A program made the translations under genes and the position numbers. A stretch of 51,454 nucleotides of DNA. Source: Faecalibacterium hattorii. GTDB lineage: Bacteria > Bacillota > Clostridia > Oscillospirales > Ruminococcaceae. How positions within the stretch are numbered: position 1 is the stretch's first letter; each line of letters begins with the position of its first letter. The notes under the pieces are model-generated. The model ran no database searches and had not been told where the DNA came from. It saw only the letters and a program-made list of their open reading frames with translations. The stretch covers positions 1 to 51,454 of the forward strand of contig NZ_PRLC01000019.1 in NCBI RefSeq assembly GCF_003287455.1, in the 5' to 3' direction. Below are positions 26,563 to 44,590 of this stretch, piece by piece.

Positions 26563-27900
26563 ATGAAACAGGAGATCATCCGCAAACTGAGCGCTGCCGT
26601 GGCCATGAGCCTCGTTGTTGGCGTTTCTCTGGCCGCGTGCGGCGGCGGCAGCAGCTCCACCGCCGCTGGTGTGACTAAGACCGGCTCTGCCGAAGGCTTT
26701 GGCGGTGCTGTCACCGCCACCCTGACCGTGGATGCCAACGGCACCGTTACCGACTGCAAGCTGGAAGGCGCACAGGAGACCGAGAGCATCGGCGGCGCTG
26801 CACTGGAAGAGCTGTCCAAGCAGGTCGTGGCCGCCAACGGCCCCGCCATCGACGGCGTTGCCGGTGCCACGGTGACCACCAAGGCCGTCCGGAAGGCCGT
26901 TGCCGCCGCACTGGGTGTGGAGCTGGCCGAAGAAGCCCCCGCCGACTCTGCTGCCGCAGCCCCCGCTGAGCCCGCCGCCATCGTCCCGGTGGAAGGCGGC
27001 ATCCAGATCGGTCAGGCCTATGCTGCCGCCCACGGCACCAAGTGCTTCACCGAAGCGGTGGCTGTGGTGAAGAATGACGTCATCCTCGCCGCCTACCTCG
27101 ACGATTTCCAGTTCACCAGCGCCGATGCAGGCGTGACCGCTGTGCCCAACTCCGACTCCGACTTTGCCGCAGGCTACGCCGAGGGCAAGGTGCTGATGTC
27201 CAAGCGGGCCAACGCCGATTATTACAGCAAGATGATGGCTGAAAAGGGCGGCTCCACGGTCGCTCTGGATGCAAACTTCGACGCCATCCAGAACTTTGCC
27301 GTCGGCAAGACCATCTCCGAGCTGGAGGATGTAGCCGCCAAGGGTGCCGAGGCTGTGGACGCCGTCTCCGGCGCAACGCTGGTGGATACCGCCGGTTATC
27401 TCTCTGCCATCGTGGATGCAGCCAAAAACGCCCAGACCACGCAGGCCGTGGAGTTCAACGGCAGCTCCGAGGACCTGAAGCTGAATGTGGTCTATGGGGC
27501 CGCACACGGCACCAAGTGCTTCACCTCCGGCGCTGTCGCCACCGCCGGGGACACCATCGTGCTGAGCTACATTGACGAGTTCCAGTTTGCCGGTTCGGAC
27601 GCCGGGGTCGTCGGTGTGCCCAACTCCGATTCTGACTTCGGCGCAGGCTACGCCGAGGGCAAGGTGCTGATGTCCAAGCGGGTCAACGCCGATTACTACA
27701 GCAAGATGATGGCCGAAAAGGCTGGTTCCACCGTTTCGCTGGATGCCAACTACGACGCCATCCAGAACCACGTGAACGGCATGAGCATTGCCGACGCCGA
27801 GGCTCTGAGCAAAGATGAAAAGGCTGTGGACGCCGTTTCCGGTGCCACGCTGGTGGATACTGCCGGCTACGTTGGTGTGCTGGTGGATGCCGCAAAGTAA
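26563..27900 (+). CDS. Extracellular FMN-binding lipoprotein with three domains
   Basis: A 445-residue lipoprotein with lipobox LAAC near residue 26, then an FMN-binding domain (about 40-115) and two tandem, nearly identical domains (about 145-285 and 305-445). Each domain ends in a motif fitting the ApbE flavinylation signal D-x-x-(S/A)-G-A-T: DGVAGAT (about 96), DAVSGAT (about 266) and DAVSGAT (about 424). Covalent flavin on the threonines is therefore likely. This resembles PplA of Gram-positive extracellular electron transfer in arrangement only. It could pass electrons to extracellular acceptors, including O2. GGAGG precedes ATG 26563. Confidence 0.82.
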   Translation: MKQEIIRKLSAAVAMSLVVGVSLAACGGGSSSTAAGVTKTGSAEGFGGAVTATLTVDANGTVTDCKLEGAQETESIGGAALEELSKQVVAANGPAIDGVAGATVTTKAVRKAVAAALGVELAEEAPADSAAAAPAEPAAIVPVEGGIQIGQAYAAAHGTKCFTEAVAVVKNDVILAAYLDDFQFTSADAGVTAVPNSDSDFAAGYAEGKVLMSKRANADYYSKMMAEKGGSTVALDANFDAIQNFAVGKTISELEDVAAKGAEAVDAVSGATLVDTAGYLSAIVDAAKNAQTTQAVEFNGSSEDLKLNVVYGAAHGTKCFTSGAVATAGDTIVLSYIDEFQFAGSDAGVVGVPNSDSDFGAGYAEGKVLMSKRVNADYYSKMMAEKAGSTVSLDANYDAIQNHVNGMSIADAEALSKDEKAVDAVSGATLVDTAGYVGVLVDAAK

Positions 27901-28413: not shown

Positions 28414-28923
28414 TTACAGCACCAGCGAGGGCGCGGTGTAGACCCGTGCCTTCAGCTCGCTGTTTAGCATATACAGCCCCTTGCTGTCACCGCCGAACAG
28501 ATCCATCTTGGTAATGAGGTCAGCGGCGTTCTTCTCCTCCTCACCCTGTTCCTTGATGAACCAGTCCAGCATCTGCATGGTGCGGAAGTCCCTGACCTCG
28601 TATGCGGCGGCGTAGATGGCATTGATGCTGGCGGTGACCAGCATCTCGTGTTCCAGTGCTCTTTTCAGCGGGGCCGTGTGGTCGCCTCGTTCCCACTCCG
28701 GCTTTGCGATAGCCTCAAAGGTGACGCCCTCGCCGTTATTCTGCAAATACTGACAAAACAGCATGGCGTGATCCCGTTCCTCCTGCGCCTGTACCCGGTA
28801 CCAGTTCTCAAAGCCGTCCAGTCCGACGGCGGCGTAGTAGTTGGCAAAGTCCAGATACAGATAGGCGGAGTAGAACTCCTTATTGATCTGCTCGTTGAGC
28901 AGAAGAGATACGTTAGCGTTCAT
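28414..28923 (-). CDS. ftnA: Ferritin
   Basis: A 169-residue bacterial ferritin that oxidises and stores iron, using H2O2 or O2 at a diiron centre. Ligand motifs are visible: EFYSAYLY near residue 17, EERDHAMLF near 50 and EQGEEEKNAADL near 127. GGAGGAG before ATG 28923 fixes the start; a longer upstream frame belongs to a broken Fur-type gene. It limits Fenton chemistry beside the oxygen-handling genes. Confidence 0.93.
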   Translation of the reverse strand: MNANVSLLLNEQINKEFYSAYLYLDFANYYAAVGLDGFENWYRVQAQEERDHAMLFCQYLQNNGEGVTFEAIAKPEWERGDHTAPLKRALEHEMLVTASINAIYAAAYEVRDFRTMQMLDWFIKEQGEEEKNAADLITKMDLFGGDSKGLYMLNSELKARVYTAPSLVL

Positions 28924-29099
28924 GATACTTCTCCTCCATAAGATTGTCTTTTCCTGCTCCCGGCATGGGGGCAGATATACCGTACCCAGAGCGATGCTGG
29001 GATGCTCCCTTTTTTCATCTCCAGGAACACCTGCTCCGCCTTGGGATGCTGCTGCAGCTCCGTTACGGCGGCCAATATCTCCTCTGCGTATTTTGGCAT
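28924..29099 (-). pseudogene. Broken Fur/PerR-family regulator gene
   Basis: On the minus strand ATG 29099 opens MPKYAEEILAAVTELQQHPK and AEQVFLEMKK, the Fur/PerR N-terminal domain. The frame is then lost in a run of A and G. In the shifted frame HPSIALGTVY appears, the Fur helix-turn-helix signature, before the sequence breaks off at the ferritin ribosome-binding site. The dimerisation and metal-binding half is absent. Ferritin is thus transcribed through the relic of what was probably its own peroxide or iron regulator. Confidence 0.65.
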
Positions 29100-29146
29100 A
29101 CCGCCAATTCTCCAAATGCAAGAATGAACCTTATTATTTTGCTTTT

Positions 29147-29493: not shown

Positions 29494-30423
29494 TTATCGG
29501 TTTTCCGCGATATATTTCTCCGCCATGTGGACTGCCACCGCGCCGTCCGCCACGGCGGTGACCACCTGACGGAGGGGCTTCGTCCTCACGTCGCCCACGG
29601 CGTATACGCCGGGAATACTGGTTTCCGTGGTCTCTCCGGCCACGATATAGCCGCCGCCGTCCAGCGCCAGTTGACCCACCGCCAGCGCCGTGGCGGGCTG
29701 TCGGCCCACGCTGACAAATACGCCGTCGCAGTCCACCACGCTTTCCTCACCGGTGACGGTGTCCCGCAGGCGGACGCCGGTCAGCCTGTCCCCGGAAAGC
29801 AACGCGGAAACGACGCTGTTCCAACGGAATTCCACGTTTTCGGCCTGTGCCAGCGGCTCGTGATAGATCTTGGTGGCCCGCAGGGTGTCTCTGCGGTGGA
29901 CGAGGATCACTTTTTTCGCCACGCGGCTGAGAAGGAGGGCATCTGCCGCGGCGGAATTGCCGCCGCCCACCACGACCACCGTTTTGCCCTTGTAAAACAT
30001 CCCGTCGCAGGCGGCGCAGTAGGCCACGCCCCGGCCCAACAGCTCCGTCTCTCCGGCAACGCCCAGCGTTCTGGGGTCTGCGCCGGTGGCCAGCACCACG
30101 GTTTTCCCCCGGAAGATCCCCTCGCTGGTCTCCACGAGCTTGGGAACCGCCGTCAGATCCATGCGGAGAACTTCCGCGTATTCGCTGCGTGCCCCAAAAC
30201 GCTCCGCCTGCTTTTGCATATTCTCCGCCAGAGAGAAGCCGTCGATCCCGTTCTCAAAGCCGGGGTAGTTGTCGATCTGCTCGGTCAGGGCCATCTGCCC
30301 ACCGGCGGACAGTTTTTCCAGCACGATGGTGTCCAGCCCCGCCCGTGCCGCGTACAGGGCAGCGGTGTAGCCGCCCGGTCCGCCGCCCACCACGAGCATA
30401 TCATAAACATGATTGTTGTTCAT
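29494..30423 (-). CDS. trxB: Thioredoxin-disulfide reductase
   Basis: A 309-residue FAD enzyme that passes electrons to thioredoxin. It has an N-terminal FAD motif GGGPGGYTAALYAARAG, the redox-active CAACDG near residue 135, an NAD(P)H-binding GGGNSAAADALLL near 155 and the C-terminal FAD motif GVYAVGDVR near 278. It lies 14 bases after trxA, so the pair is co-transcribed. It is the last gene of the island's main minus-strand block. Confidence 0.94.
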   Translation of the reverse strand: MNNNHVYDMLVVGGGPGGYTAALYAARAGLDTIVLEKLSAGGQMALTEQIDNYPGFENGIDGFSLAENMQKQAERFGARSEYAEVLRMDLTAVPKLVETSEGIFRGKTVVLATGADPRTLGVAGETELLGRGVAYCAACDGMFYKGKTVVVVGGGNSAAADALLLSRVAKKVILVHRRDTLRATKIYHEPLAQAENVEFRWNSVVSALLSGDRLTGVRLRDTVTGEESVVDCDGVFVSVGRQPATALAVGQLALDGGGYIVAGETTETSIPGVYAVGDVRTKPLRQVVTAVADGAVAVHMAEKYIAENR

Positions 30424-30437: not shown

Positions 30438-30761
30438 TTATTTCGCCAAGGCTTCCTGAATGAAACGGTCGATTTCTGCCTTTGAGCCGGGCGCGATGAT
30501 GGAATCCACGGCCTTTCCGTTCCGGTACAGCACCAGAGTTGGGATGTCCTCGATCCCCTCGGCCCCCGCCAGCTGCGGCTCCTCGTCAATATTGATCTTG
30601 CCGACAGCAAGGCTGTCCGCGTATTCCTCTCCAATCTTCTCATACGCAGGGCCGATCCTCCGGCAATAGCTGCACCAGGGCGCCCAGAAATCTACCAAAA
30701 CAGGCTTTTCCTCCCGGATCAACTGCTTAAACTGCTCCTGATTCATATTCATAGCTGCCAT
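30438..30761 (-). CDS. trxA: Thioredoxin with WCSYC active site
   Basis: A 107-residue thioredoxin fold. The active site is WCSYC (Cys30, Cys33) instead of the common WCGPC, and the cis-proline segment is DIPTLVLYRNG. The altered dipeptide should change the redox potential. GGAG upstream supports the first ATG. The gene is paired with trxB and follows a flavodiiron protein at a gap of about 160 bases. Confidence 0.92.
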   Translation of the reverse strand: MAAMNMNQEQFKQLIREEKPVLVDFWAPWCSYCRRIGPAYEKIGEEYADSLAVGKINIDEEPQLAGAEGIEDIPTLVLYRNGKAVDSIIAPGSKAEIDRFIQEALAK

Positions 30762-30922: not shown

Positions 30923-32104
30923 TTATTCTGCGCAGAGCTCAGCCACCAGAGCGTCCATCTGCGCTTCGCTGGTTTGGTTCAATGCACCACGCAGAGACAC
31001 TACCGTTTCGTAAAGGTGGATATCCTTCATCTCCTCCAATTTGGTGCGCATCAGCCGCGCGGCATCAGGTGCCCAAGAGCCGTCTTCAATAAGGCCAACC
31101 CGGCGGTTTCGGAATCCCTTTGTCCGTAAATGTTCCAAAAACTCCCTCATGGGCGGAAACAGTCCTCCGTCATAGGTGGCGCTGGCTAAAACCAACTTCC
31201 CGCAGTAGAACGCACTGGCAACAGCGTAGGAAAGATCTGTCACAGTGAGATCACATATGTTGACCTGTACGCCTTTTTTCTCTAATTTACCCTTGAGGGT
31301 CTTCGCCGCATGGGCAGTATTTCCATGGATGGATGCGTGGGCAATCAGTATGCTCTCCGATTCTTCTGGTTCCCATTGTGACCAGAGATCATAGAACCGC
31401 AGACACTCCTCCAGCCCTTCTGTAAGCACGGGACCGTGGAGCGGGCAGATTGTTTTGATCTCCAGTGCGGAGATTTTTTTCAGCAGCGCCTGCACCTGTG
31501 CGCCATATTTCCCGATAATATTGTAATAATACCGTCGGGCCTGCGGCACCCAGGGGGCACGGGCAGTCCGTTCCAGTGAGCCAAAGCGTCCGAAGGCATC
31601 CGCCGAGAACAGGATTTTTTCCGTTTCCTCATACGCCGTCATCACCTCCGGCCAGTGTACCATCGGCGCCAGCAGAAAGCGCAGCCGGTGCAAACCCAAG
31701 GAAAGCGTATCTCTTTCGCCAACCTCCAGCATACGGTCTTCCGACAATGCACCTGTGCCGAAGAACTGCTTGATCAGGGTAAATGTTTTCGCGTTTCCCA
31801 CGATCTTCATCTCCGGGTACTTTTGTGCCAGCCGCATGAGACTGCCGGAATGATCCGGCTCCATGTGTGTGACCACAAGATAGTCGGGCCTGCGCCCCTC
31901 CAACACCCGTGCCACATTGGAAAGCCATTCTTCCGTTGCCCGTGCGTCCACGCTGTCTATCACGGCAATCTTCTCATCCAGAATGACATAGGAGTTGTAG
32001 CTCACTCCCATAGGCTGGACGGGGTACTGGTTTTCAAAGAGTGCCAATGTGTTATCATCCACCCCTACATAGCGGATGGCATCTGTTACCGTTTGGATAG
32101 CCAT
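30923..32104 (-). CDS. fprA: Flavodiiron protein (O2/NO reductase), copy 1
   Basis: A 393-residue class A flavodiiron protein. The beta-lactamase-like domain keeps all diiron ligands: His80, Glu82, Asp84, His85 (HMEPDH), His150, Asp169 and His223. A flavodoxin-like domain starts near residue 252 (LIAHASIHGNTA) and should bind FMN. There is no C-terminal rubredoxin, so it needs a separate electron donor. It reduces O2 to water or NO to N2O. It lies 129 bases downstream of the nitroreductase. Confidence 0.94.
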   Translation of the reverse strand: MAIQTVTDAIRYVGVDDNTLALFENQYPVQPMGVSYNSYVILDEKIAVIDSVDARATEEWLSNVARVLEGRRPDYLVVTHMEPDHSGSLMRLAQKYPEMKIVGNAKTFTLIKQFFGTGALSEDRMLEVGERDTLSLGLHRLRFLLAPMVHWPEVMTAYEETEKILFSADAFGRFGSLERTARAPWVPQARRYYYNIIGKYGAQVQALLKKISALEIKTICPLHGPVLTEGLEECLRFYDLWSQWEPEESESILIAHASIHGNTAHAAKTLKGKLEKKGVQVNICDLTVTDLSYAVASAFYCGKLVLASATYDGGLFPPMREFLEHLRTKGFRNRRVGLIEDGSWAPDAARLMRTKLEEMKDIHLYETVVSLRGALNQTSEAQMDALVAELCAE

Positions 32105-32233
32105 ATAAAATATACCTCCTATTTTCCTTACTCAGACTCTGACTGATAGGTTCTTCTTTTCTAACGAAACATACGCTCAACCGCGGATCGACGGTCGCGC
32201 ATTTCACCGTTGCCTTGCTTCCCCCCAGAGTCG

Positions 32234-33097
32234 TTACATGTGGTACACCGCAGCGGGGCGAAGTCCTTCCGGCAGGCCGTCGGGCGCAGCAGGTGAAAGT
32301 TCCCAGCGTACCTGCCCCGCCCACTGGGAGGCGACAGCGGAGAAGTGGAGCATGACAATACCGAGATCCAATGCGGCATCCAAATTATCGGTGTAGGCAT
32401 CCTCCTGCTGCACCAAATAGATGCTGTGGTCCTGCACAAGGAAGCCATAGGGCTGACGGTTGAGATAGCTGGGGGAGAGCGAAGCGGCGTAGACGGACTG
32501 CCAGAGCATATCGTCGTAGAAGTCCATCATCTCGTCAAGCCCAGACTTGTTGCTCCAGCTCCCCATGTGAACCAAATCGTGCACGCCCTTTTTGGGCGCG
32601 TAGTACTGCTGCTCGGCCCGCACATCGATCTGAGACATACTTAGGATATTCAGCCGCAGCTTTTTTGCGGTCTTTTCCCCGTAGCCAAAGGCAACGATTG
32701 CCGCCACCTCTAACGGGGTGGCGAGAGACAGTGCCTTTTTGATTTTGTCGCTGTCGGTGAAGGTCATCCAGCAGGTGTCAATGTCCAACTCAGTCAGCTT
32801 GAGGACGAGATCTTCCATCATGTAGCCGGCGTTAATGGCCGCATAGGAATGCGGGGCAGACATAAGGAGCAGGTAGTGCGGTGCTCCGATGAGAAATTGA
32901 TTATAGCCCGCTGAGCTCTCCAGCGCCGGCTGTGCATCCTTGTCCAAGACGATCAACTCCGTTGCAATCTCCGGGACAAGACGGGGGCAGGTCTTTTCAT
33001 AGTAGGATCTGAGCTGGCCGATAGCCTCGCTCGGAACTTCCTTTTCGCGGAATGCGTGAACGGATCTGCGATTTTGAATCATAGCGCTGTAATTCAT
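32234..33097 (-). CDS. Nitroreductase-family FMN oxidoreductase
   Basis: A 287-residue protein. The N-terminal RRSVHAFREK is the FMN-phosphate-binding arginine motif of nitroreductases. The body fits the two-lobed family (GYMMEDLVLKLTELDIDTCW near 100; NRQPYGFLVQDHSIY near 225). The substrate is unknown; it might reduce quinones, nitro compounds or flavins. It is 34 bases after nrdB, probably in the same transcript. Confidence 0.8.
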   Translation of the reverse strand: MNYSAMIQNRRSVHAFREKEVPSEAIGQLRSYYEKTCPRLVPEIATELIVLDKDAQPALESSAGYNQFLIGAPHYLLLMSAPHSYAAINAGYMMEDLVLKLTELDIDTCWMTFTDSDKIKKALSLATPLEVAAIVAFGYGEKTAKKLRLNILSMSQIDVRAEQQYYAPKKGVHDLVHMGSWSNKSGLDEMMDFYDDMLWQSVYAASLSPSYLNRQPYGFLVQDHSIYLVQQEDAYTDNLDAALDLGIVMLHFSAVASQWAGQVRWELSPAAPDGLPEGLRPAAVYHM

Positions 33098-33131
33098 AGT
33101 AATATCTCCTATTCTGATGTCTTTGGTTTTC

Positions 33132-34175
33132 TTATAAATCGTCTATCAGTGCGGTGCTCTTGGCGTAGGCGGTACTGCGTGCCTCAAAGAAATCGGTCTT
33201 GACCATGTTGGCGTCGGCGTACTGGCTGACCCATTCCATGCTCTCCGGTTCGCTCTCAAAGCCTGGATACAATGCGGGATAGCCAAGGCTCGTCCAGCGG
33301 AGGTTGCCGAGATAGCGGATGTAATCGCTGATCATCTGCCGGTTCAGCCCCGGGATGTCGTCGCCGATTACATAATGCCCCCATGCGATCTCCTGCTCCA
33401 CGCCCTCACGCATCATCTCGCGCAGCGCTTGTACGCTCTCGGCGGTGAACAACTCCGGCTGCTCCTTTTGCAGCTCCGTGATGATATTGCGGAACAGCCA
33501 CAAGTGCGTGTTCTCATCGCGGTTTATGTAGCGAATCTCCTGCGCCGAGCCGGGCATCTTCCCGTTTCGGGAGAGATTGTAGAAGAACATAAAGCCGCTG
33601 TAAAAATAGATGCCCTCCAAAATATAGTTTGCCATCATCACGCGCAGCAGCGTGGGAGCGTCCTTCCGCTCCTGAAACGCGTTGTAGCAGTCCCCAATGA
33701 AGGTGTTGCGGCGCAGCAGATGCTCGTCCGTTTTCCATTGGTAGAGGATGTCATTGCGCTCCACGGGGGAACAGATGGTATCGAGCATATAGCTGTAGCT
33801 CTGTGAGTGGACACACTCCTGAAACGCCTGAATGGACAGGCAGAGATTGACCTCGTTGGCGGTAATGTAGGCGCCGATATTAGGCAGGTTCGCTGTCTGA
33901 ATGGAATCCAAAAAGACGAGAAAACTCAGAATTTTATCGTAGGCGCTGCGCTCGGTTGACAGCAGGCGGGGATAGTCCTTCACATCCTGCGAGAGATTGA
34001 TCTCCTCAGGGATCCAGAAGTTGTTCATGGCCTGCCGGTACCAGTCGCTGACCCAAGCGTACTTCATATTGTTGAAGTCGTTGAGGTTTGTGGTATTGCC
34101 GCCGATCATGCGCCGCAGGCGCACATCAGGGTCGCCCTCCGGGTTAAAGAGGGGCTTTTTCTTCAGTTCCGTCAT
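33132..34175 (-). CDS. nrdB: Class I ribonucleotide reductase, beta subunit
   Basis: A 347-residue radical-generating subunit. Metal ligands are visible as Asp90, Glu120, His123, Glu187, Glu221 and His224, with the radical tyrosine as Tyr127 (HSQSY). The tyrosine makes it an Fe- or Mn-tyrosyl enzyme that needs oxygen (or superoxide) for activation. The start at ATG 34175 has AAGGAGG upstream. It sits 10 bases after nrdA. Confidence 0.94.
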   Translation of the reverse strand: MTELKKKPLFNPEGDPDVRLRRMIGGNTTNLNDFNNMKYAWVSDWYRQAMNNFWIPEEINLSQDVKDYPRLLSTERSAYDKILSFLVFLDSIQTANLPNIGAYITANEVNLCLSIQAFQECVHSQSYSYMLDTICSPVERNDILYQWKTDEHLLRRNTFIGDCYNAFQERKDAPTLLRVMMANYILEGIYFYSGFMFFYNLSRNGKMPGSAQEIRYINRDENTHLWLFRNIITELQKEQPELFTAESVQALREMMREGVEQEIAWGHYVIGDDIPGLNRQMISDYIRYLGNLRWTSLGYPALYPGFESEPESMEWVSQYADANMVKTDFFEARSTAYAKSTALIDDL

Positions 34176-34185
34176 GCTATCCTCC

Positions 34186-36702
34186 TTATGACGAGCAGCT
34201 TTCGCAGGTCTCGACCTCAAGGGCCTTGCTGCGGACATAGTAAATGGTCTTGACGCCGGCCCTCCACGCCTCCAAATACAGTCTGAGCACCTGACGCATG
34301 GAATAGTCGTTGGTGATATAGAGATTCATGCTCTGCGCCTGGTCAATATGTCTCTGGCGAAGGCCCGCGGCGCGTACCGACCAGCTTTGGTCGATCAGAT
34401 GCGCTGCCTTATAGTACCACCATGTGTCCATAGAAAGCTCCGGAGCAACGCGGGGCAGCATGCTGCCCTTTTTTTCCTCTAAAAAGAATTTCTTCATAAT
34501 TGGATCTATGCCCGCCGACGTGCCGGAGAGGATAGATGTGCTGGAGGTCGGTGCGACCGCCAGCAGATAGGCGTTGCGCATTCCCTGCACCGCCACCGTT
34601 TTCGCAAGCGCCCGCCACTTTTCGGAGGTATAACCCCGCTTTTCAAAATACGCGCCCGTCTGCCAGTCGCTGCCCTCAAAGAGCGCGTAACGACCCTTTT
34701 CCCGTGCCAGTGCTGTGTCCGCCTTGACGGCGGCGTAGTTGATGAGCTCGAACACTGCGTCGGTGAAGGCAAGGTGCTCATCGCTCTCCCAGTGGATGCC
34801 GCGCTTTGCCAGCATGTGGTGGTAGCCGCTGACGCCCAGGCCGATGCTGCGGTACTTCTGATTGGTAAGCCGCGCGTATTCCAACGGGTAGAAGTTGAGG
34901 TCGATCACATTATCCAGTGCGCGGATGGCCGTTTCCACCGTGCGTTCCATATAGGCCTCGTCCTCCACCGGCAGATTACCGAGAGACAGACTCGCCAGAT
35001 TGCAGACCACAAACTCACCTGGGCGTGTGGCCGTCACCACTATTGTGTCGCCGTTCTCAGTGTGCACCTCAGTGCTGATGTGCTCGATGGGCGCCATGTT
35101 CTGCGCGATCTCCGTACAGAGATTGGAGCAATAGATCATTCCCGTGTGGCCGTTTGGATTCATATGATTTACACTGTCGCGATTGAAAGCGAAGGGCGTG
35201 CCGGTCTCCACTGCCGAGCGAAGCACCAGCCGCACGATGTCCTTGACGGTGACGCTGCGCTTTTCGATGCGCGGGTCATTGACGCAGTCCAGATACCGCT
35301 TCTCCCATTCTGTACCCCAGTAATCCTCCAGTGCGTAGCCCTTGACCGTGAGGATCTCATGCGGACACATGAGATGCCACGGCGCGTCTATGTTCTCCTC
35401 CGCCAGTCGCCAGAAGAGATCCGGATAGCACACGGCGGGAAATACATCATGTGCCTTCATGCGGTCGTCGCCGTTGTTGGTGCGCAGTTGAAGGAATTCC
35501 GGCAGGTCCCGGTGCCATGCGTCTAAGTAAACCGCCACAGCGCCCTGCCGCATCCCCAACTGATCCACCGCCACGGCGGTGTCGTTGACCAGCCGGATCC
35601 AGCGGATAACACCGCCCGCCGCCCCTTGAAAGCCGCGGATGGTGCTGCCTGCAGCGCGCACCTTACCGAAGTACATCCCCATTCCACCGCCGAATTTAGA
35701 GACCTTTGCGAAGTTGTCCAGCGAGCGGTAGATGCCGTCCAGACTGTCCGGCACAGTGTCCACAAAGCAGCTTGAAAGCTGATGGTAGGGCTTTCGTGCG
35801 TTGGACATGGTAGGTGTCGCCATTGTGACCTCCATACGGCTGAGCATATCGTAAAAGCGTTTTACCCACCCCATGCGATCAGAGCCTTCGTTCATAGCAA
35901 GATGCAGCGCGATACCCAAAAACATCTCCTGCGGTGTTTCCAGCGGCACGCGGCTGCGTGACTGGATCACATAGCGTTTGAGCAGCAGGTCAAGGCCGGA
36001 ATAGGTGAACAGCTCGTCCCGTTCCGGGCAGAGAAAGTCCTCCGCCATGGCAATCTCCTCGTGGGTATAGTGGGCAAGGATATAGTCACCGTAGAGTCCC
36101 TTATCCGTCAGATAGCGAAGCTTGCCATAGAGGTCGCCGACGCCACGCCCCTCCCATTCCTGTGCGTTGCGACAGCGAAAGGAGTGGTTCAGAAGCCGCG
36201 CCGCGATGAACTCCCACTTGGGTGCCTCTGCCGTAGTCAGCTCTACCGCCGCCTTGGTCAGTGCCTCAGCCCGCTCATCCTCCGTCATGCCCAGGCGACA
36301 GAAACTCTCAAACTTCATTTGAAGCGCCGCGAGGGAGTAGACTTCCTCGGTAAAATCCATCTGGATGCGGCGCAGCACCTCGTCAAGCGAGTCATCCCCC
36401 ACCGTCCGCGCGATGGTATGCCGGACACGGCGCAGCGCAGACCGCTTTTCGCGGTAGAGGATGTACGCCTTGGCCACCTCATAGTGTCCGCGCTCCATGA
36501 GCGTTCGCTCCACCTCGTCCTGCACACGTTCTACGGTGAGCGGCACTGTGACGGAGAGATTGTTGAGAACGGTGGCGAGGATCTCATCCATCTCTCTGCT
36601 CCCGATCTCCTTGCCCTGTCCGTCAAACGCCTTTTTCATGGCGTTGAAAATTTTCTCCTGTTGAAAGGGAACAGACTCCCCGTTTCGTTTTCTGATCTCC
36701 AT
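34186..36702 (-). CDS. nrdA: Class I ribonucleotide reductase, alpha subunit
   Basis: An 838-residue catalytic subunit with an N-terminal ATP-cone (about residues 1-90). Catalytic cysteines are visible in SSCFVDT, in SNLCTEI with the radical Cys and catalytic Glu, and in VVCNLASLSLGN. The C-terminal CESCSS is the thioredoxin-reducible pair. ATG 36702 is chosen because GAGAGG lies 6 bases upstream; another ATG 27 bases upstream is in frame. A class I enzyme is unexpected in a strict anaerobe, whose usual enzyme is the oxygen-sensitive NrdD. Confidence 0.94.
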   Translation of the reverse strand: MEIRKRNGESVPFQQEKIFNAMKKAFDGQGKEIGSREMDEILATVLNNLSVTVPLTVERVQDEVERTLMERGHYEVAKAYILYREKRSALRRVRHTIARTVGDDSLDEVLRRIQMDFTEEVYSLAALQMKFESFCRLGMTEDERAEALTKAAVELTTAEAPKWEFIAARLLNHSFRCRNAQEWEGRGVGDLYGKLRYLTDKGLYGDYILAHYTHEEIAMAEDFLCPERDELFTYSGLDLLLKRYVIQSRSRVPLETPQEMFLGIALHLAMNEGSDRMGWVKRFYDMLSRMEVTMATPTMSNARKPYHQLSSCFVDTVPDSLDGIYRSLDNFAKVSKFGGGMGMYFGKVRAAGSTIRGFQGAAGGVIRWIRLVNDTAVAVDQLGMRQGAVAVYLDAWHRDLPEFLQLRTNNGDDRMKAHDVFPAVCYPDLFWRLAEENIDAPWHLMCPHEILTVKGYALEDYWGTEWEKRYLDCVNDPRIEKRSVTVKDIVRLVLRSAVETGTPFAFNRDSVNHMNPNGHTGMIYCSNLCTEIAQNMAPIEHISTEVHTENGDTIVVTATRPGEFVVCNLASLSLGNLPVEDEAYMERTVETAIRALDNVIDLNFYPLEYARLTNQKYRSIGLGVSGYHHMLAKRGIHWESDEHLAFTDAVFELINYAAVKADTALAREKGRYALFEGSDWQTGAYFEKRGYTSEKWRALAKTVAVQGMRNAYLLAVAPTSSTSILSGTSAGIDPIMKKFFLEEKKGSMLPRVAPELSMDTWWYYKAAHLIDQSWSVRAAGLRQRHIDQAQSMNLYITNDYSMRQVLRLYLEAWRAGVKTIYYVRSKALEVETCESCSS

Positions 36703-36750
36703 TTCGATCCTCTCATCTTCTCCGGTCACTTCTCATGTCCTTTTGGGCAA

Positions 36751-36786
36751 AGAGCGGGCAAGCGCAGTATCACGCTTGCCCGCTCT
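36751..36786. terminator. Perfect 14-bp hairpin between fprA2 and nrdA
   Basis: AGAGCGGGCAAGCG (36751-36764) is the exact reverse complement of 36773-36786 with an 8-base loop. The + strand side has GTTTTT; the minus side has only a short CTCTTTG. It may end or attenuate transcription from fprA2 into nrdAB, so nrdAB expression may be partly separate. No distinct nrdA promoter was seen. Confidence 0.6.
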
Positions 36787-36867
36787 GTTTTTGAAAGCCG
36801 GTTTTTCTGCAGCCGACGCGGCAGGGCTGTTTGTTGTCTGTTGTCTTGGTTTTGGCTTTCCTGCCAG

Positions 36868-38079
36868 TTACTTCATAGATTCCAGAATGGCGTCCGCCAG
36901 TGCTTCCAGCTCAGTGCGCTTGTCCGTGCCCATGGACGAGGCGAGGCTGAGCCGCTCGTTGAGCACCGTCATGTTCTTAAGCTCATTGTTGACGAATTTC
37001 TGCATGAGGTCACCGGACTTCACCGCCCATGAGCCGTTTTCAATGATGGCAAAGGTGCGGTTTTGCAGATTCAGTGCCTTCATATCCATGAGGAAGTCAT
37101 GCATGGCAGGGTAGATGCCGAGGTTGTAGGTCACAGAGGCCAGGACAATGTGACTGTACTTAAACGCCTCGGAGATCAGCTGGGAGACATGAGTGGAGGA
37201 CACATCGTACATCGCCACCTTGCTCATGCCCTTATCGCAGAGCGACGTCGCCAGCGCCTGCGCCGCGTTCTCCGTGTTGCCGTACATAGAGGCGTAGACG
37301 ATGAGCACGCCCTGGGTCTCAGGGGCATAGCGGCTCCATGTGTCGTACTTTTCAATGAACCAGCCCAGATCCTTGCGCCACACGGGGCCGTGGAGCGGGC
37401 AGATGTACTTGATCTGATCCAAAACGCCGCCGGCCTTTTTCAGCAGGAGCTGGATGTGGGGGCCGTACTTGCCCACGATGTTGGTAAGGTAGCGACGGGC
37501 GTCGTCCAGCCAGTCCCGCTCGAAGTCCACCTCGTCGGCGAACAGCTTGCCGTCCAGCGCGCCGAAGGTGCCGAAGGCGTCGGCGGAAAAGAGGACGCCG
37601 TCGGTGACGTCGAGGGTCACCATGGCCTCCGGCCAGTGAACCATAGGCGCGCCCACAAAGGTGACGGTGTGCTTGCCGAAGGAGAAGGTGTCGCCCTCCT
37701 TCACCTCGATGCACTCATGTCCGTCCACATGGAAGCCGAACTGCCGCATGAGCATGAATGCCTTCTCGTTGGAGATCAATTTCACCTTGGGATGGCGCAG
37801 CAGGATCTCCTCGATGCAGGCGGCGTGATCCGGCTCCAGATGGTTGACCAGCAGGTAGTCCAGCTCGCGGCCATCCAGCACATACGCCAGATTTTCCAAA
37901 AGCTGGCGGCAGGCAGACCAGTCCACCGTGTCAAAGAGCACCGTCTTTTCATCCAGCAGGCAGTAGGCGTTGTAGCTTACGCCCCGGGGAATGGGAAAGC
38001 AGTTTTCAAACAGGGCCAGGCGATGGTCGTTGGCGCCCACCCAGTAGAGGTCGTTCGTTACTTTACGCACACAATACAT
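36868..38079 (-). CDS. fprA: Flavodiiron protein (O2/NO reductase), copy 2
   Basis: A 403-residue flavodiiron protein distinct from copy 1. Ligands are His80, Glu82, Asp84, His85 (HLEPDH), His148, Asp167 and His230. The FMN-binding flavodoxin domain begins near residue 258 (LIVYASMYGNTE). It too lacks a rubredoxin domain. It lies 23 bases after the acyl-CoA dehydrogenase/rubredoxin fusion, the likely electron donor. It is a cytoplasmic O2 and possibly NO scavenger. Confidence 0.94.
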   Translation of the reverse strand: MYCVRKVTNDLYWVGANDHRLALFENCFPIPRGVSYNAYCLLDEKTVLFDTVDWSACRQLLENLAYVLDGRELDYLLVNHLEPDHAACIEEILLRHPKVKLISNEKAFMLMRQFGFHVDGHECIEVKEGDTFSFGKHTVTFVGAPMVHWPEAMVTLDVTDGVLFSADAFGTFGALDGKLFADEVDFERDWLDDARRYLTNIVGKYGPHIQLLLKKAGGVLDQIKYICPLHGPVWRKDLGWFIEKYDTWSRYAPETQGVLIVYASMYGNTENAAQALATSLCDKGMSKVAMYDVSSTHVSQLISEAFKYSHIVLASVTYNLGIYPAMHDFLMDMKALNLQNRTFAIIENGSWAVKSGDLMQKFVNNELKNMTVLNERLSLASSMGTDKRTELEALADAILESMK

Positions 38080-38102
38080 CTTATCTTGCCTCCTTCACGG
38101 CC

Positions 38103-40016
38103 TCAAGCCTTTACAAATTGATCCTTCGTCTCCGCGCACTCGGGACACACCCACTCGGCGGGAAGCTGCTCAAAGAGCGTACCGGGCGCGATCTCGCCGT
38201 CCTCGTCGCCCAACTCCGGCACATACTCGTAGCCGCAGCCGCTGCAGACGTAGCGGTCGCCGATGGGGGCGGGCTTCGGCGGCGTGGGCCGCTTCATCTT
38301 TACCATGGGCGGCGCGGGCAGCTTTTCGCCGCTATCCAGCGCGGCAGTGAGCAGGGGCAGGATCTCCTCCACATCGCCCACGATGCCGTAGTCGCAGTTC
38401 TTGAAGATAGGCGCGTTACCGTTCTTATTGATGGCCACGATGGTGGAGGCGTCCTTGATGCCCTTAAGGTGCTGGGATGCGCCGGAGATGCCGCAGGCGA
38501 TGTACAGATTGCCGGTGAACTTCTGACCGGACATACCCACATAGCGGTTCAGCGGCAGATATTTGAGAGTCTCCGCCACAGGGCGGGAAGAACCGATGGC
38601 CGCGCCGGCGGCCTTGGCCAGCGACTCTACCAGTTTCATGTTCTTTTTCTCCCCGATGCCCTTGCCCGCGGAGACCACCCGCTCCGCCTGCGGGATGGGC
38701 GTATCCATAGGGATGCCCACGGAGAAGTCGTGACCATCCTTCTTCAGCGCCGCCACAAGGTCGGCCACCTGCTGGGCAGCATCCCCCTCCCGGAAGATAG
38801 TCTTTTTGCGAATGCCGGTGATGGGCGCGGGTTTCTTGGCCGCCGAACGGCTCTCGCCGCCGGAGCTCTTGCCCAGTCTGCCCAACAGATGAGAGGCGAT
38901 GACCACCCGCTGGATCTCGTTAGTGCCCTCGTAGAGGGTGGTGATCTTGGCGTCGCGGTAGGCCCGTTCCACCTCCATGCCCTTGAGGTAGCCGCTGCCG
39001 CCGTGGATCTGCAAGGCATCGTTGGTGACCTCCAGCGCGATGTCCGAGGCGTACATCTTCGCCATGGCGGACTCCATACCGTAAGGCGCGTGCTGCTCCT
39101 TCAGCTCCGCCGCGGAGTAGATGAGGAACCGGGCGCAGCGCAGCTTGGTTGCCATATCCGCCAGCTTGAAGGCGATGCTCTGCTGGGCCGCGATGGGCTT
39201 GCCAAACTGGACACGCTCCTTGGAATAGCTCAACGCGTGCTCAAACGCGCCCTGGGCGATGCCCAGCGCCTGCGCGGCGATGCCGATGCGTCCGCCGTCC
39301 AGCGTGGACATGGCAATCTTGAAGCCCTCGCCCTCCTTGCCCAATAGGTTTTCCTTGGGAACCTTCACGTCGTTGAAGATCAGCTCCGCCGTGGAGGAGG
39401 AGCGAATACCCATCTTGTCATAGTGGTCGCCGAACTCAAAGCCCTTCCAGCCCTTCTCCACGATGAAAGCGGAGATGCCCCGGGTGCCGATGTCCGGCGT
39501 GGTGACGGCGAAAACCACATAGGTGTCCGCCTTAGGGGCGTTGGTAATGAAGATCTTGCCGCCGTTGAGGAGGTAGTAGTCCCCCTTATCCAGCGCTGTG
39601 GTCTCCGTGCCGCCGGCGTCGGATCCGGCGTTGGTCTCCGTAAGGCCGAAGGCGCCGATCTTCTCGCCCTTGGCCAGCGGAACCAGATATTTCTTCTTCT
39701 GCTCCTCGGTGCCATAGGCGAAAATGGGCCATGAGCCGAGGGAGACGTGGGCGGAGAGGATTACGCCCGTGCCGCCGTCCACACGGGCCAGCTCCTCCAC
39801 CGCGATGGCGTAGCTCAGAGCATCAAGACCGGCACCGCCGTACTCCTTGGGGTAGGGAATGCCCATCCAGCCCAGCTTACCCAGCTTCTTGACAGCCTCC
39901 TCGGGAAACTCATTGTTCTGATCCATTAAAAATGCGAGGGGCTTGATCTCCTCCTCCGCAAAACTCCGGATCTTCGCGCGCAGCTCTTCGTGCGCCGACG
40001 TGGTTTGAAACAGCAT
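38103..40016 (-). CDS. Acyl-CoA dehydrogenase / ETF-alpha / rubredoxin fusion
   Basis: A 637-residue three-part fusion. Residues 1-380 form an acyl-CoA dehydrogenase with FAD-binding [11 protein letters not shown]-type and RVQFGKPI segments, and the catalytic Glu363 in YEGTNEIQR, as in short-chain (butyryl-CoA) enzymes. Residues ~445-560 resemble the FAD-binding C-terminal domain of ETF-alpha ([12 protein letters not shown], then [20 protein letters not shown]); the usual N-terminal ETF domain is reduced or absent. Residues 587-637 form a rubredoxin with Cys591, Cys594, Cys624 and Cys627. The chain suggests electrons move from acyl-CoA through two FADs to the iron site, then to the flavodiiron protein encoded next. 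The physiological acyl-CoA is unknown. Confidence 0.9.
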
Positions 40017-40038: not shown

Positions 40039-40470
40039 TTACAGCTTGCTTGTATCTTGGGGATCGGATCCGCCGGTCAGCAGCCTGCGCAGGCTCACGG
40101 CGCGGAACGCCTCGTCCTGCTTTTGCTGCAAAGCCGCCAGCTGACAGTGGATGGCGCACCGCCCATGCTTGTCATGCCAGCGGCATTCATATCCCGGCTC
40201 CATGCAGGCGCACAGGATGCCCCGCTCCCCCACGACCCCCATGAGATCGTAGAGGGAGGTCGCGTCCAGATCGCAGGACAGCTCGCAGCCGCCGAGAGCG
40301 CCGCGGCTCACCCGCACCAAATTGCCGGCGGAGAGCTTGCGCAGAATCTGGTAGGCAAACTGATTGGGGATCAATTCCGTTTCCGACATCTCGGCCACCG
40401 AATGCTTCTCCCCGTCCATCAGCACCCGCAAAATGCGCAGCGCGTAGTCCGTCTCTTTGGTGATGATCAT
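40039..40470 (-). CDS. Rrf2-family cysteine-rich regulator
   Basis: A 143-residue Rrf2 protein with an N-terminal winged helix (ITKETDYALRILRVLMDGEK at the start) and a cysteine cluster (Cys87, 89, 96, 105 and 109), which suggests an Fe-S or redox sensor like NsrR or IscR. ATG 40470 has AGAGGA at good distance; the ATG 9 bases upstream does not. It leads the operon of the dehydrogenase fusion, and an inverted repeat covers its promoter, so self-repression relieved by O2 or NO is likely. Confidence 0.85.
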   Translation of the reverse strand: MIITKETDYALRILRVLMDGEKHSVAEMSETELIPNQFAYQILRKLSAGNLVRVSRGALGGCELSCDLDATSLYDLMGVVGERGILCACMEPGYECRWHDKHGRCAIHCQLAALQQKQDEAFRAVSLRRLLTGGSDPQDTSKL

Positions 40471-40505
40471 GCTCCACATCCTCTTTTCGCTTGCTTGTTA
40501 ATACT

Positions 40506-40537
40506 ATCATATCAATCTTGATAAAATTTGTCAAGAT
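40506..40537 (-). promoter_or_regulatory. Rrf2-operon promoter with overlapping operator
   Basis: On the minus strand TTGACA (40534-40529) and TATGAT (40511-40506) are 17 bases apart. The inverted repeat ATCTTGA-N9-TCAAGAT (40515-40537) covers the -35 and most of the spacer. Repressor binding there would exclude polymerase. Confidence 0.75.
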
Positions 40538-40812: not shown

Positions 40813-41484
40813 CTATGTTAAGATGTGCAGTAGATGTTCCATTTTTCTGTCCCATTCTCTGCTGGAATCGGCGCACTCTTTCAGTTCAGTTTCGATTTCA
40901 GCATTTATCGGCAGATTTTTCTTATAGCGGATGGTATGCTCAAGGCTTGCCCAGAAGTCCATGGCGATTGTACGGAGTTGTATCTCCACTGGCACATGGA
41001 TCTCTTTTTCCGCAAAGAATACCGGCAGCCGGATCGTCAGGTGCAGACTGCGATAGCCATTTGGCTTAGGGTGTGAAATATAATCTTTCTCCGTGATGAT
41101 TTCAATGTCAGACTGATCTTTTAAGCACTTTGCCAAAAAGAACACATCCTCCTCGAAAGAGCAGATCACCCGCACACCGGCAATATCCATGATATTTGCC
41201 TGCATGGTCGGAAAATCCAGAGAAAGTCCGCGCTTCTGCATCTTATTCATAATGCTGGACGGCGACTTCAAGCGACTTTTCATACTTTCTATCGGATTGC
41301 GATCATGCTGCAATGAAAACTCTTCGTTTAGAATTTCCAACCTGCTTTCCAGTGCTTTCAGCGCACATCGGTATTGCAGCATGACTTCCTGATACCTGCG
41401 ATTTTCGCTTAAAAGGCGCTGGCACTGCAGATCATCTAAGCCTTTATCTGCCGCAACCGTCAAGCCAAATAAATTTTCACTCAT
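40813..41484 (-). CDS. Small alarmone synthetase (RelA/SpoT-type)
   Basis: A 223-residue stand-alone (p)ppGpp synthetase domain with HPKPNGYRSLHL (the GTP-binding YRSLH motif) and VEIQLRTIAMDFWASLEH. It has no hydrolase, TGS or ACT domain. Size and helix layout match SAS proteins such as YjbM/YwaC. Its ATG overlaps the stop of the CoA-disulfide reductase gene (ATGA), so it is co-translated with a redox operon. That links thiol or oxygen stress to growth arrest (inference). Confidence 0.85.
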   Translation of the reverse strand: MSENLFGLTVAADKGLDDLQCQRLLSENRRYQEVMLQYRCALKALESRLEILNEEFSLQHDRNPIESMKSRLKSPSSIMNKMQKRGLSLDFPTMQANIMDIAGVRVICSFEEDVFFLAKCLKDQSDIEIITEKDYISHPKPNGYRSLHLTIRLPVFFAEKEIHVPVEIQLRTIAMDFWASLEHTIRYKKNLPINAEIETELKECADSSREWDRKMEHLLHILT

Positions 41485-43175
41485 AGTTTCTCCATTCCGC
41501 AGGGATAGGCGCTCCGCGCTGTCTGCTGCTCTTGTGTTACGACCTGATAAAAACTGTATCCGCCGGAGAGATGGGAACAGCTGAAACCATACTGCGTCAA
41601 AAGCCGACAGGCCAGATAACTGCGAAGCCCAGTCTGGCAATTCACATAGATAGGCTTGTCCCGCTCTAACTCGTCCAAGTGCTTCCGCAGATCGTCCAGT
41701 GGAATATTGCGGAATCCATTCAAGTGCCCACGCCGATATTCGCCTTCCGTACGGACGTCCAGCAGCGTCGCACTGCCATCGCAGGGCAAGTCCTCAACAT
41801 CATTCCAATGGAACTGCTGCACTTTCCCGCTCTCCAAATCCTCGATCATAAAACCGGCCATATTGACCGGATCTTTGGCAGAGGAATAGGGCGGCGCATA
41901 GGAAAGGTCAAGTTCCGTCAGTTCCAAAGCTTTCATTTTTGCGCGAATGGCCGTTGCCAGTACATCAATACGCTTGTCCACACCGTCGCCGCCAACGATC
42001 TGCGCACCGAGCAACCGCAGGCTTTCTTTTTCATACAGTACCTTCATTGCCATAGACTGTGCGCCGGGATAATAGGCAGCGTGGGATGCTGGGAAAAGTA
42101 CGACTTTGTCGTAAGCGATTCCTGCTGCCTGCGCTGCCTTTTCATTGATACCCGTGGAGGCCGCTGTCAAGCCAAACAGTTTCAGAACAGACGAACCCTG
42201 AGAGCCGGTAAAGTGGCTGTTGCCGCCGCAGATATTGTCAGCGGCAATGCGTCCCTGCTTGTTGGCGGGTCCCGCCAGCGAAATCAACGCTTTCTGCCCG
42301 GTTACAAAATGGGTGACCTCTACGGCATCGCCCACAGCATAGATGTCCGGCACGGAGGTTTCCATCCGTTCGGTGACAGCGATGCTTCCACGAATACCAA
42401 GCTCAAGACCGACATCTTTTGCTAAATGCGTGTCCGGGGTAACACCGATGGCCAGCAACACCATATCCGAATGCAGCGGCTCACTACTCTCCAACAGAGT
42501 CAGCACGGAATCTCCGTCCTGTCGGAATCCGGTAACGGTTTCCCCCAACCGCAGAGTCACGCCGTGTCTGCGCATTTCCGCATGGACAAAGCTCGCCATG
42601 TCCGCATCCAGTGGTGCTAATAGCTGATTGGGTCGCTGAACGATGGTGACAGAAACGCCCATTTCTGTAAGGTTTTCCGCCATTTCCAGACCGATAAAGC
42701 CGCCGCCAGCCAAAACAGCGTTTTTCGGCTTCTGATCCTCTACAAAGTGCCTAATGCGGAGGGTATCCTCCACGGTGCGCAGCGTGAAAACACGCTCACT
42801 GCTGACGCCGGAAAGCGCAGGAACCGTCGGCTTTGCGCCGGGGGCAAGAAGCAGTTTGTCATAGGTTTCCGTATAGATCTTCCCGCTGTCCAGTGTGCGG
42901 ACCGTGACGGTTTTCTCTGCGGGATTGATCGCAGTTACTTCCTGCCGTACCCGCACATCAATGCGAAAGCGGTCCCAGAAGCTCTCCGGAGTTTGCAGTG
43001 TCAGTTCTTCTTGCTCCTTGATCACACCGCCCACATAATACGGCAGACCGCAGTTGGCATAGGACACATAGCCGCTACGCTCGATCATGATAATCTGCGC
43101 GTGTTCATCCAAACGGCGGATGCGGGCAGCAGCAGAAGCACCGCCCGCCACGCCGCCTACGATCACAACTTTCAT
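41481..43175 (-). CDS. CoA-disulfide reductase with C-terminal rhodanese
   Basis: A 564-residue FAD enzyme with N-terminal VIVGGVAGGASAAARIRRL, redox Cys42 in SYANCGLPYY, an NAD(P)H-binding GGGFIGLEMAENL near 158 and IYAVGDAVEV near 275. A rhodanese domain follows from about 470 with VNCQTGLRSY as the active-site loop. The architecture is that of CoADR-RHD/Npsr enzymes, which reduce CoA persulfide, polysulfide or O2. It overlaps thioredoxin upstream and the alarmone synthetase downstream. Confidence 0.88.
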   Translation of the reverse strand: MKVVIVGGVAGGASAAARIRRLDEHAQIIMIERSGYVSYANCGLPYYVGGVIKEQEELTLQTPESFWDRFRIDVRVRQEVTAINPAEKTVTVRTLDSGKIYTETYDKLLLAPGAKPTVPALSGVSSERVFTLRTVEDTLRIRHFVEDQKPKNAVLAGGGFIGLEMAENLTEMGVSVTIVQRPNQLLAPLDADMASFVHAEMRRHGVTLRLGETVTGFRQDGDSVLTLLESSEPLHSDMVLLAIGVTPDTHLAKDVGLELGIRGSIAVTERMETSVPDIYAVGDAVEVTHFVTGQKALISLAGPANKQGRIAADNICGGNSHFTGSQGSSVLKLFGLTAASTGINEKAAQAAGIAYDKVVLFPASHAAYYPGAQSMAMKVLYEKESLRLLGAQIVGGDGVDKRIDVLATAIRAKMKALELTELDLSYAPPYSSAKDPVNMAGFMIEDLESGKVQQFHWNDVEDLPCDGSATLLDVRTEGEYRRGHLNGFRNIPLDDLRKHLDELERDKPIYVNCQTGLRSYLACRLLTQYGFSCSHLSGGYSFYQVVTQEQQTARSAYPCGMEKL

Positions 43176-43492
43176 CTTGCGCCCTCCACCATTGCGGCAA
43201 TCTCCGACTTAGGCCGATAGCCGACCAATTTGGTAATGGCCTTTCCATCCTTGAATACGGCCAGCATCGGGATGCTGGATACCTGAAAACGCATCGCCAG
43301 CTCCATCTGCTCGTCCACATTGACCTTGCCCACCTTGAGCGTACCGCTTTTTTCTTCGGCAAGCTCATGCAGTACGGGAGAGAGCATTTTGCACGGTCCG
43401 CACCAGTCCGCATAGAAATCCAGCAGGACGGGCTTGTCGGAATGCAGTACCTCATTTTCAAAATTCGCAGCAGTAATTTTCAGTTCAGCCAT
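43172..43492 (-). CDS. trxA: Thioredoxin with classical WCGPC site
   Basis: A 106-residue thioredoxin with active site WCGPC (Cys31, Cys34) and cis-Pro SSIPMLAVFKDG. It lies in the operon with ferredoxin-thioredoxin reductase, its probable reductant, and overlaps the CoA-disulfide reductase gene. It is distinct from the WCSYC thioredoxin at 30438. Confidence 0.92.
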   Translation of the reverse strand: MAELKITAANFENEVLHSDKPVLLDFYADWCGPCKMLSPVLHELAEEKSGTLKVGKVNVDEQMELAMRFQVSSIPMLAVFKDGKAITKLVGYRPKSEIAAMVEGAR

Positions 43493-44314: not shown

Positions 44315-44512
44315 CTACAAGGATTTGTAATAGAGCATACAGTGGCAGACCCCCTCGAAGCGCGGATCTGCAATTGGATTCTTGAACTCCTGGCACATAC
44401 ATTTGGTTGCCTCTATGCGCTCCCTGCGGCAGGGGCAGTACCCGCCGGTGCGCTTGAGTCCTTTTCTGATGGTGCTGACAATCTCCTGATCGGGATTGAG
44501 CTTGATTTTCAT
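44315..44512 (-). CDS. Ferredoxin-thioredoxin reductase, catalytic beta subunit
   Basis: A 65-residue protein with the three CxC motifs of FTR-beta: CPC (26, 28), CMC (38, 40) and CHC (56, 58). These bind the 4Fe-4S cluster and redox disulfide that pass ferredoxin electrons to thioredoxin. ATG 44512 is chosen because the promoter at 44543 places transcription start near 44536. A longer frame would run through the upstream terminator. It is shorter than plant FTR-beta (about 110) but holds all cluster motifs. Confidence 0.88.
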   Translation of the reverse strand: MKIKLNPDQEIVSTIRKGLKRTGGYCPCRRERIEATKCMCQEFKNPIADPRFEGVCHCMLYYKSL

Positions 44513-44542
44513 GTTCGCCAGCTCTTTCTTGATTGTGGCTTT

Positions 44543-44583: not shown

Positions 44584-44590
44584 ATTGATA

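Follow-up and report, generated by a model that had tools for sequence, protein, structure and literature searches.

A butyryl-CoA oxygen oxidoreductase operon in an oxygen-defence island that is very probably cargo of integrative and conjugative elements of gut Clostridia

The contig NZ_PRLC01000019.1 of Faecalibacterium hattorii (51,454 bases, the whole of it called the window below) contains an oxygen-defence island of ~19 kb, at 28.4-47.3 kb, in which a regulator of the Rrf2 family, a fusion protein here called BCR and a flavodiiron protein (FDP) form an operon. The BCR-FDP pair can be assigned with high confidence, its function by orthology, to butyryl-CoA oxygen oxidoreductase (BOOR), and it is very probable that the BOOR operon, inside this island, is cargo of integrative and conjugative elements (ICEs) that move between gut Clostridia. 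Carriage on conjugative or integrative elements is supported by comparison with other genomes, and a cell that receives the island would be expected to gain aerotolerance.

BCR is a single chain in which Pfam identifies the N, middle and C domains of an acyl-CoA dehydrogenase (residues 6-377), the FAD-binding domain of ETF-alpha (residues 441-521, E 3.5e-26) and a rubredoxin (residues 588-634, E 1.5e-18), with no Pfam match within the chain to an N-terminal ETF-alpha domain or to ETF-beta. The first-pass annotation of this DNA had described a 637-residue fusion that retains Glu363 and Cys591/594/624/627, a gap of 23 bases to the next gene and two FDPs, the nearer one without its own rubredoxin, in a conjugative setting; open reading frames (ORFs) and Pfam confirm the proteins, and VirB4/TraG-like, MobC/NikA-like and relaxase genes are present on the same contig. 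Glu363 and the four cysteines are identical in Fusobacterium vincentii in a pairwise alignment, and are among 26 hand-picked conserved positions that are all identical (26/26) between the two proteins. Among the matches listed, the nearest solved structure for the dehydrogenase part is the butyryl-CoA dehydrogenase of C. difficile (5ol2, 61% identity), and those for the ETF-alpha FAD domain (residues ~441-561) are 1efp and 5ol2_A; none of the matches listed represents the whole architecture, the 60 matches listed in one search ending at about residue 398, and a Foldseek search with the BCR model gave only acyl-CoA-dehydrogenase-type chains among the 50 matches listed. The AlphaFold model has a low-confidence linker (residues 382-397) and a pTM of 0.64, so the placement of the domains is not taken from it. 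The host's own Bcd and EtfA genes lie on another contig, and their products are 54% and 40% identical, respectively, to the corresponding parts of BCR.

The joining of a Bcd domain, a C-terminal EtfA domain and a rubredoxin in one chain is the arrangement of BOOR. The BCR of F. vincentii is 75.7% identical to that of the window over 637/637 residues and is followed, after 24 bases and in the same gene order, by an FDP that is 66% identical over 403 amino acids. In the case of F. nucleatum, the available text of PMC12288474 reports that FN1423 is bicistronic with a fusion of Bcd, the EtfA C-terminus and rubredoxin, and that BCR and FDP form an alpha4beta4 complex with butyryl-CoA-dependent O2 reduction and no nitric oxide (NO) reductase activity. 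The likeness of the window pair to this system (FN1423-FN1424), compared through the F. vincentii pair, lies in the three-domain fusion and the adjoining class A FDP, with the order kept. The difference lies in the surroundings: in F. vincentii, only BCR and FDP matched the window proteins compared, within 6 kb on each side, whereas in the window the pair is accompanied by Rrf2, ribonucleotide reductase (RNR), a second FDP and defence genes, with conjugation genes nearby. BCR-FDP is present in a 2.1-Mb F. vincentii record labelled as plasmid pSB055A (L174, NZ_CP084075.1), which is as large as a chromosome and has probably been mislabelled.

The enzyme and part of its neighbourhood are already known. 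The first-pass annotation had regarded the fused donor as the unusual part of this region, and the idea that the fusion is new is rejected, since it was published as BOOR in 2024. The primary paper is reportedly that of Bystrom and Wolthers (2024). BOOR is also treated in the available text of PMC12630350. As far as its available text goes, a 2026 preprint (PMC13404960) reports that BOOR of gut Clostridia is adjoined by an Rrf2 factor (UniRef50_C0FN14), which it likens to NsrR, and that rubrerythrin, thioredoxin and RNR are over-represented near Rrf2-BOOR, in F. prausnitzii especially, and it gives neighbourhoods of Rrf2-BOOR-RNR-Trx-Rbr in F. prausnitzii and Lachnospiraceae. The operon and several of these neighbours are common to the window, the genus being the same, and the Rrf2-BCR gene order is that of the preprint's C0FN14 homologues.

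The FDP that adjoins BCR, fprA1, and a second one in the island, fprA2, both have an ODP domain and a flavodoxin domain in Pfam (the flavodoxin match of fprA2 being under the Pfam cut-off), and neither has a Pfam match to rubredoxin. The motifs HxExDH, HWPE, SADAFG and CPLHGP, which we take to be the diiron ligands, can be read in both proteins; an ODP beta-lactamase domain with a flavodoxin, no extra domain and the diiron ligand motifs are the features of a class A FDP. In a structure search, the best solved relative was an FprA deposited as a nitric oxide reductase, followed by rubredoxin:oxygen oxidoreductase and then by flavorubredoxin entries, the source of the first presumably being Moorella and the last presumably being of the E. 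coli type.

Among 291 genomes sampled from the class, 20 contain the full-length fusion, the window's own included, in a survey that scored at most four candidates per genome with a cut at E 1e-100 and could therefore overlook a fusion where many acyl-CoA dehydrogenases are encoded. The other 19 fusions are 63-85% identical to the window's BCR, and a first-type FDP gene adjoins the fusion in every one (19/19). A second sample consists of named loci, the best 80 of at least 574 confirmed BCR relatives, of which 66 are testable, the fusion being complete and the downstream sequence 1.3 kb or longer (in seven others this sequence is under 1.3 kb, and a further seven have no full-length fusion ORF). 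In all 66, an FDP comes after the fusion, at a distance of 150 bases or less in 64, with ~570 bases in L095 and ~475 bases in L108. The linkage of the fusion to fprA, for which the first-pass annotation had proposed a genome search, holds in both samples and exceeds chance. Because the FDP within 150 bases is of the fprA1 type in 64/64 cases, fprA2 is a member of the island and not of the BOOR pair, and the earlier suggestion that both FDPs partner the fusion is abandoned.

The same counts bear on the alternative that BCR serves as a rubredoxin-type donor in general, supplying fprA2, rubrerythrin and desulfoferrodoxin as well, O2 reduction by the neighbouring FDP being one of several outputs. 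All three proteins are encoded in the island, and the CxxC..CPxC pattern of BCR is the sole rubredoxin-type pattern in six frames of 28.0-47.6 kb (one pattern searched). Such a role is nonetheless unlikely, given that the near FDP is consistently of the fprA1 type, that the available text of PMC12288474 describes a dedicated complex in F. nucleatum, and that a window-like rubrerythrin occurs in 4 and fprA2 in 5 of the 80 named loci (which include many short contigs), BCR-FDP being usually without them. An Rrf2 homologue is found in 44 of the same 80 loci.

Evidence that the island has moved comes from its distribution and DNA identity. The genus as grouped here includes F. longum CLA-AA-H243 and F. 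prausnitzii ATCC 27768, and the full-length fusion occurs in 10 of its 31 genomes, in eight (including the window's) at 100% when rounded, in one at 86% and in one at 69%; the remaining 21, some of them incomplete, have no match at E <= 1e-200. Taken as means over matched pieces of at least 400 bases, identity of the island to the window is 98.3% in genome G304 (15.4 kb), 97.7% in G317 (18.3 kb), 98.6% in G318 (12.5 kb), 98.5% in G292 (18.7 kb), 98.1% in F. longum L083 (20.8 kb, one piece to 48.9 kb), 98.5% in F. prausnitzii L085 (ATCC 27768; 14.0 kb) and 98.7% in F. prausnitzii L134 (10.1 kb). The corresponding values are 95.6% over 17.0 kb for C. fessum (pieces 93.3-97.2%), 94.5% over 17.6 kb for Oscillibacter MSJ-31 (pieces 90.5-96.2%) and 86.5% over 5.7 kb for Vescimonas. 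For the bcd-etf region, which served as chromosomal control (13 records, with two genomes represented twice), identity is 90-93% in the Faecalibacterium carriers, 74% in Oscillibacter, and 66% and 74% in the two longest pieces of C. fessum. In a tree of 73 full-length fusions and the window, made by a quick method, the window, C. fessum and Oscillibacter rows fall in a nine-row set with SH-aLRT 99. The GC content of the C. fessum island is 55.8%, versus 43-52% in its flanks.

These comparisons can be set against the possibility that the block is part of the ordinary chromosome, inherited vertically, and just happens to have a conjugative element next to it in the assembly. BCR-FDP does occur in many Clostridia without other island genes nearby, the two diverged Faecalibacterium copies (86% and 69%) are what vertical or older copies would look like, and the left flank and tRNA site are common to G317 and G318. 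However, island identity across species (97.7-98.7%) exceeds that of the chromosomal operon, the gap being wider still for C. fessum, 21 of the 31 genus genomes, some incomplete, lack a fusion match, most of four complete genomes compared have different neighbours of the island, and integrases and tRNA-bounded intervals are associated with it, all of which makes vertical inheritance scarcely credible. The description of the fusion as an ordinary chromosomal butyrate gene is rejected on the island's identity above the control and on the separate contig that holds the host's own Bcd and EtfA.

As for the vehicle, a row of VirB4, topoisomerase, YodL, SNF2, MobC and relaxase genes precedes the island in the window, and the relaxase and a type IV secretion ATPase share its contig. 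Among known elements, the nearest are presumably the Tn916/Tn1549-like ICEs, compared by label only; the likeness lies in the row of VirB4, NlpC/P60, topoisomerase, YodL, SNF2, MobC and relaxase with cargo beside the relaxase, and the difference in the oxygen-defence cargo and in the degenerate or tandem elements held by several related genomes. A large protein with beta-helix repeats is encoded in the interval between relaxase and island (22091-24370). The relaxase-to-island order is repeated in G298, with a relaxase 92% identical to the window's. No match was found among phage records.

Where the genome is complete, integrases are found close to the island, and the site is a tRNA or resembles one. 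For instance, the island of G317 is within an interval of 34.9 kb that has a 3' fragment of tRNA-Arg(CCT) and an integrase on one side and the intact tRNA-Arg(CCT) on the other. The left site is the same in G318, followed by integrase, island and relaxase; with a distance of 136.8 kb to the intact tRNA-Arg, the site is probably used by several elements. This stretch between the flanks of one tRNA-Arg(CCT) site (G318 C1:804591-941538) contains several integrase and relaxase matches and looks like a hot spot of integration. G320 is without a fusion match, and there the near left flank of G317 (~220 bases) meets the right flank at an intact tRNA-Arg. The island of G292 is in 42 kb bounded by two copies of a repeat that, by our own reading, resembles a tRNA 3' end; ARAGORN gave no tRNA call at this place. 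One end of the interval has an integrase, and an apparent second element follows. In G304, another copy of this repeat lies next to the island, together with an integrase remnant that scores below the family cut-off. In C. fessum, the island is on an 885-kb contig, ~3 kb from genes read by eye as those of ribosomal proteins S9 and L13. A different setting is found in Vescimonas fastidiosa (L082, NZ_AP023417.1), a 142-kb plasmid record typed as non-mobilizable, which has BCR-FDP, fprA2 and ferritin at 86-88% DNA identity, a nitroreductase and more diverged trx/trxB, in a stretch with integrase and excisionase genes. Elements of at least two kinds carry the block, and its genes are also rearranged. 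The Vescimonas record also holds AcrIIA9-family and PcfJ-domain genes.

Several observations weigh against a simple view in which an intact, self-transmissible element carries a fixed block. No integrase was seen among the window ORFs scanned, no attachment site was found in the window, and a genome-wide integrase search lists none on the contig. The 34.9-kb interval of G317 has no relaxase match, and this copy would not be self-transmissible. The G320 site is not clean, the farther left flank being 11 kb away, as would fit if the site were unoccupied and a second change had occurred next to it. The 42-kb interval of G292 has no match to relaxase or VirB4, and the elements of G292 and G304 look partly degenerate, so not every copy would be self-transmissible. 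The C. fessum copy may no longer be mobile, since the VirB4 next to it is split into pieces, with alignments over 71 and 293 amino acids. Because parts of the island are less alike than its core, as with fprA2 of G317 (only 90.6% identical in DNA) and pieces at 44.5-47.6 kb (94-97% in several genomes), the island has been patched by recombination as well as moved whole. In addition, the nitroreductase gene is missing from the C. fessum island, and Oscillibacter has trx/trxB inverted. With regard to the host's metabolism, an RnfC_N-domain protein is encoded, the domain being present in 7/7 genomes searched, and it also matches 9/14 control genomes, which makes it weak evidence for a full Rnf complex.

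ICEs in F. prausnitzii have already been suspected from conjugation genes in PMC9674144, the available text of which does not mention oxygen-defence cargo. The main text of PMC13404960, as available, is without the words mobile, conjugat-, transposon and integrative, and has 'horizontal' once, for Bacteroidia. No report of ICE carriage of BOOR and its recent spread to other families was found in the texts examined from the open-access literature searched; the mobility of BOOR is better described as not found there than as certainly new.

By orthology, the BOOR reaction in Faecalibacterium would be that of F. nucleatum. Electrons would pass from butyryl-CoA to the FAD of the BCR dehydrogenase, then to that carried by the ETF-alpha domain tethered to it (the chain has no ETF-beta), and from there through the rubredoxin iron to the FMN and diiron site of the adjoining FDP, which would reduce O2 to water. 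Crotonyl-CoA would return to the host's own Bcd-Etf system, and O2 would thereby be removed at little energetic cost; with the host's Bcd and EtfA genes and its RnfC_N protein, butyryl-CoA could be regenerated. Rrf2 probably controls the operon, and with the kit of the island a cell could dispose of traces of O2 and also make use of them. The available text of PMC12288474 argues that removal of O2 by a weak reductant spares NADH.

A related alternative is that the chain mainly removes NO. It draws on two points, the first being that this FDP class includes NO reductases (such as the FprA presumed to be from Moorella). The second is the comparison of the Rrf2 factor with NsrR in the available text of PMC13404960. 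Set against these, the F. nucleatum complex is without NO reductase activity in the available text of PMC12288474, and the remaining island genes are those of O2, superoxide and peroxide, so that NO removal as the main role is highly improbable and NO reductase is rejected as the leading function. The first-pass annotation had proposed acyl-CoA-driven reduction of O2 or NO: the O2 chain agrees with the F. nucleatum biochemistry, and the NO part does not.

If BOOR is carried in this way, butyrate-producing Clostridia would be handed a kit comprising a butyryl-CoA-driven O2 reductase, an O2-dependent RNR, superoxide and peroxide removal, and regulators. It is tentatively suggested that oxygen tolerance is a transferable cargo trait of the gut, in which a conjugative kit has spread recently across species and families and explains much of the difference in aerotolerance among Faecalibacterium strains. 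BOOR was found recently, and the question addressed here is how butyrate producers of the gut gain or lose it. Similar copies on or beside mobile DNA in Faecalibacterium species, C. fessum and Oscillibacter would allow a direct test of horizontally acquired aerotolerance in health-associated anaerobes, with a bearing on the choice of Faecalibacterium strains for survival during handling or in an inflamed gut, where there is more oxygen.

The genes of the island and of the conjugation region are collected in Table 1. The Rrf2 regulator has Asp8 if its second methionine (MIITKETD) is the start, and promoter-like matches in the region number 9, versus 4.6 expected. The ExxHxxxY motif of NrdB is presumably that of a tyrosyl-radical, O2-dependent enzyme.

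Table 1. Coordinates of predicted features in the window
Feature	Position	Strand	Remarks
VirB4/TraG-like conjugation ATPase	1605-3974	+	Domain match
DNA topoisomerase of element	6527-8845	+	Domain match
Large SNF2/helicase protein of element	12039-19310	+	Domain match
NikA/MobC-like mobilization protein	19307-19639	+	Domain match
MobA/VirD2-type relaxase	20336-21727	+	Domain match
FMN_bind-domain protein, island edge	26509-27900	+	Kept in G318, G292 and G298 (DNA, ORF matches)
Ferritin	28414-29121	-	Listed TTG start probably too far upstream
TrxB, thioredoxin-reductase-like flavoprotein	29494-30423	-	Pyr_redox domains; a homologue annotated trxB
Thioredoxin	30438-30761	-	Domain match
Second FDP, fprA2, 393 aa	30923-32104	-	~41% identical to fprA1-type proteins
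Nitroreductase-family protein	32234-33097	-	Pfam
NrdB, class I RNR beta subunit	33132-34238	-	ExxHxxxY motif (ECVHSQSY) at residue 141
NrdA, class I RNR alpha subunit	34186-36729	-	Profile match
FDP fprA1, 403 aa, class A	36868-38079	-	23 bases downstream of BCR; ODP and flavodoxin domains
BCR fusion, 637 aa	38103-40016	-	Acyl(butyryl)-CoA dehydrogenase / ETF-alpha FAD domain / rubredoxin; ORF listing and Pfam
Rrf2-family regulator	40039-40479	-	22 bases upstream of BCR; seven Cys
Sigma-70-like promoter match, 11/12	40506-40534	-	Upstream of rrf2-BCR-FDP; consensus match only
RelA/SpoT-domain (p)ppGpp synthetase-like protein	40813-41640	-	Listed start overlaps CoADR by 160 bases
CoA-disulfide-reductase-like flavoprotein (CoADR) with rhodanese domain	41481-43175	-	Under NCBIfam cut-off
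Thioredoxin	43172-43492	-	Domain match
Fer4_5 membrane-type 4Fe-4S protein	43521-44096	-	Domain match
Small 2[4Fe-4S] ferredoxin-like protein, 67 aa	44093-44296	-	ORF scan
Ferredoxin-thioredoxin reductase catalytic-chain-like protein	44315-44647	-	Domain match
Desulfoferrodoxin (superoxide reductase family)	44635-45009	-	Over Pfam cut-off, under that of NCBIfam
Rubrerythrin	45031-45573	-	Above NCBIfam cut-off
Crp/Fnr-family regulator	45661-46407	-	Domain match
DUF134 / dinitrogenase FeMo-Co domain protein	46319-47320	-	Domain match

A class I RNR in an anaerobe is itself of note, its genes (33132-36729) being placed between the BOOR pair and the nitroreductase. The RelA/SpoT-domain gene is also present in the island copies of G317, G292, F. 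longum, C. fessum and Oscillibacter. Beside the island, the window encodes a UmuC/DinB-type polymerase and has a YolD match under the Pfam cut-off (48365-50348). The FMN_bind-domain protein at the island edge may have a part in flavin-based electron transfer outside the cell or at the membrane. Genes that by eye resemble those for riboflavin synthesis (ribH, ribBA, ribE, ribD) are found in the islands of G317 (L069, ~2,300,650-2,305,000) and G298 (L172), the ribE-like protein being listed in G317 only, and an LMW-phosphatase-like gene is also in this stretch; a supply of flavin would fit the flavin-rich kit of the island.

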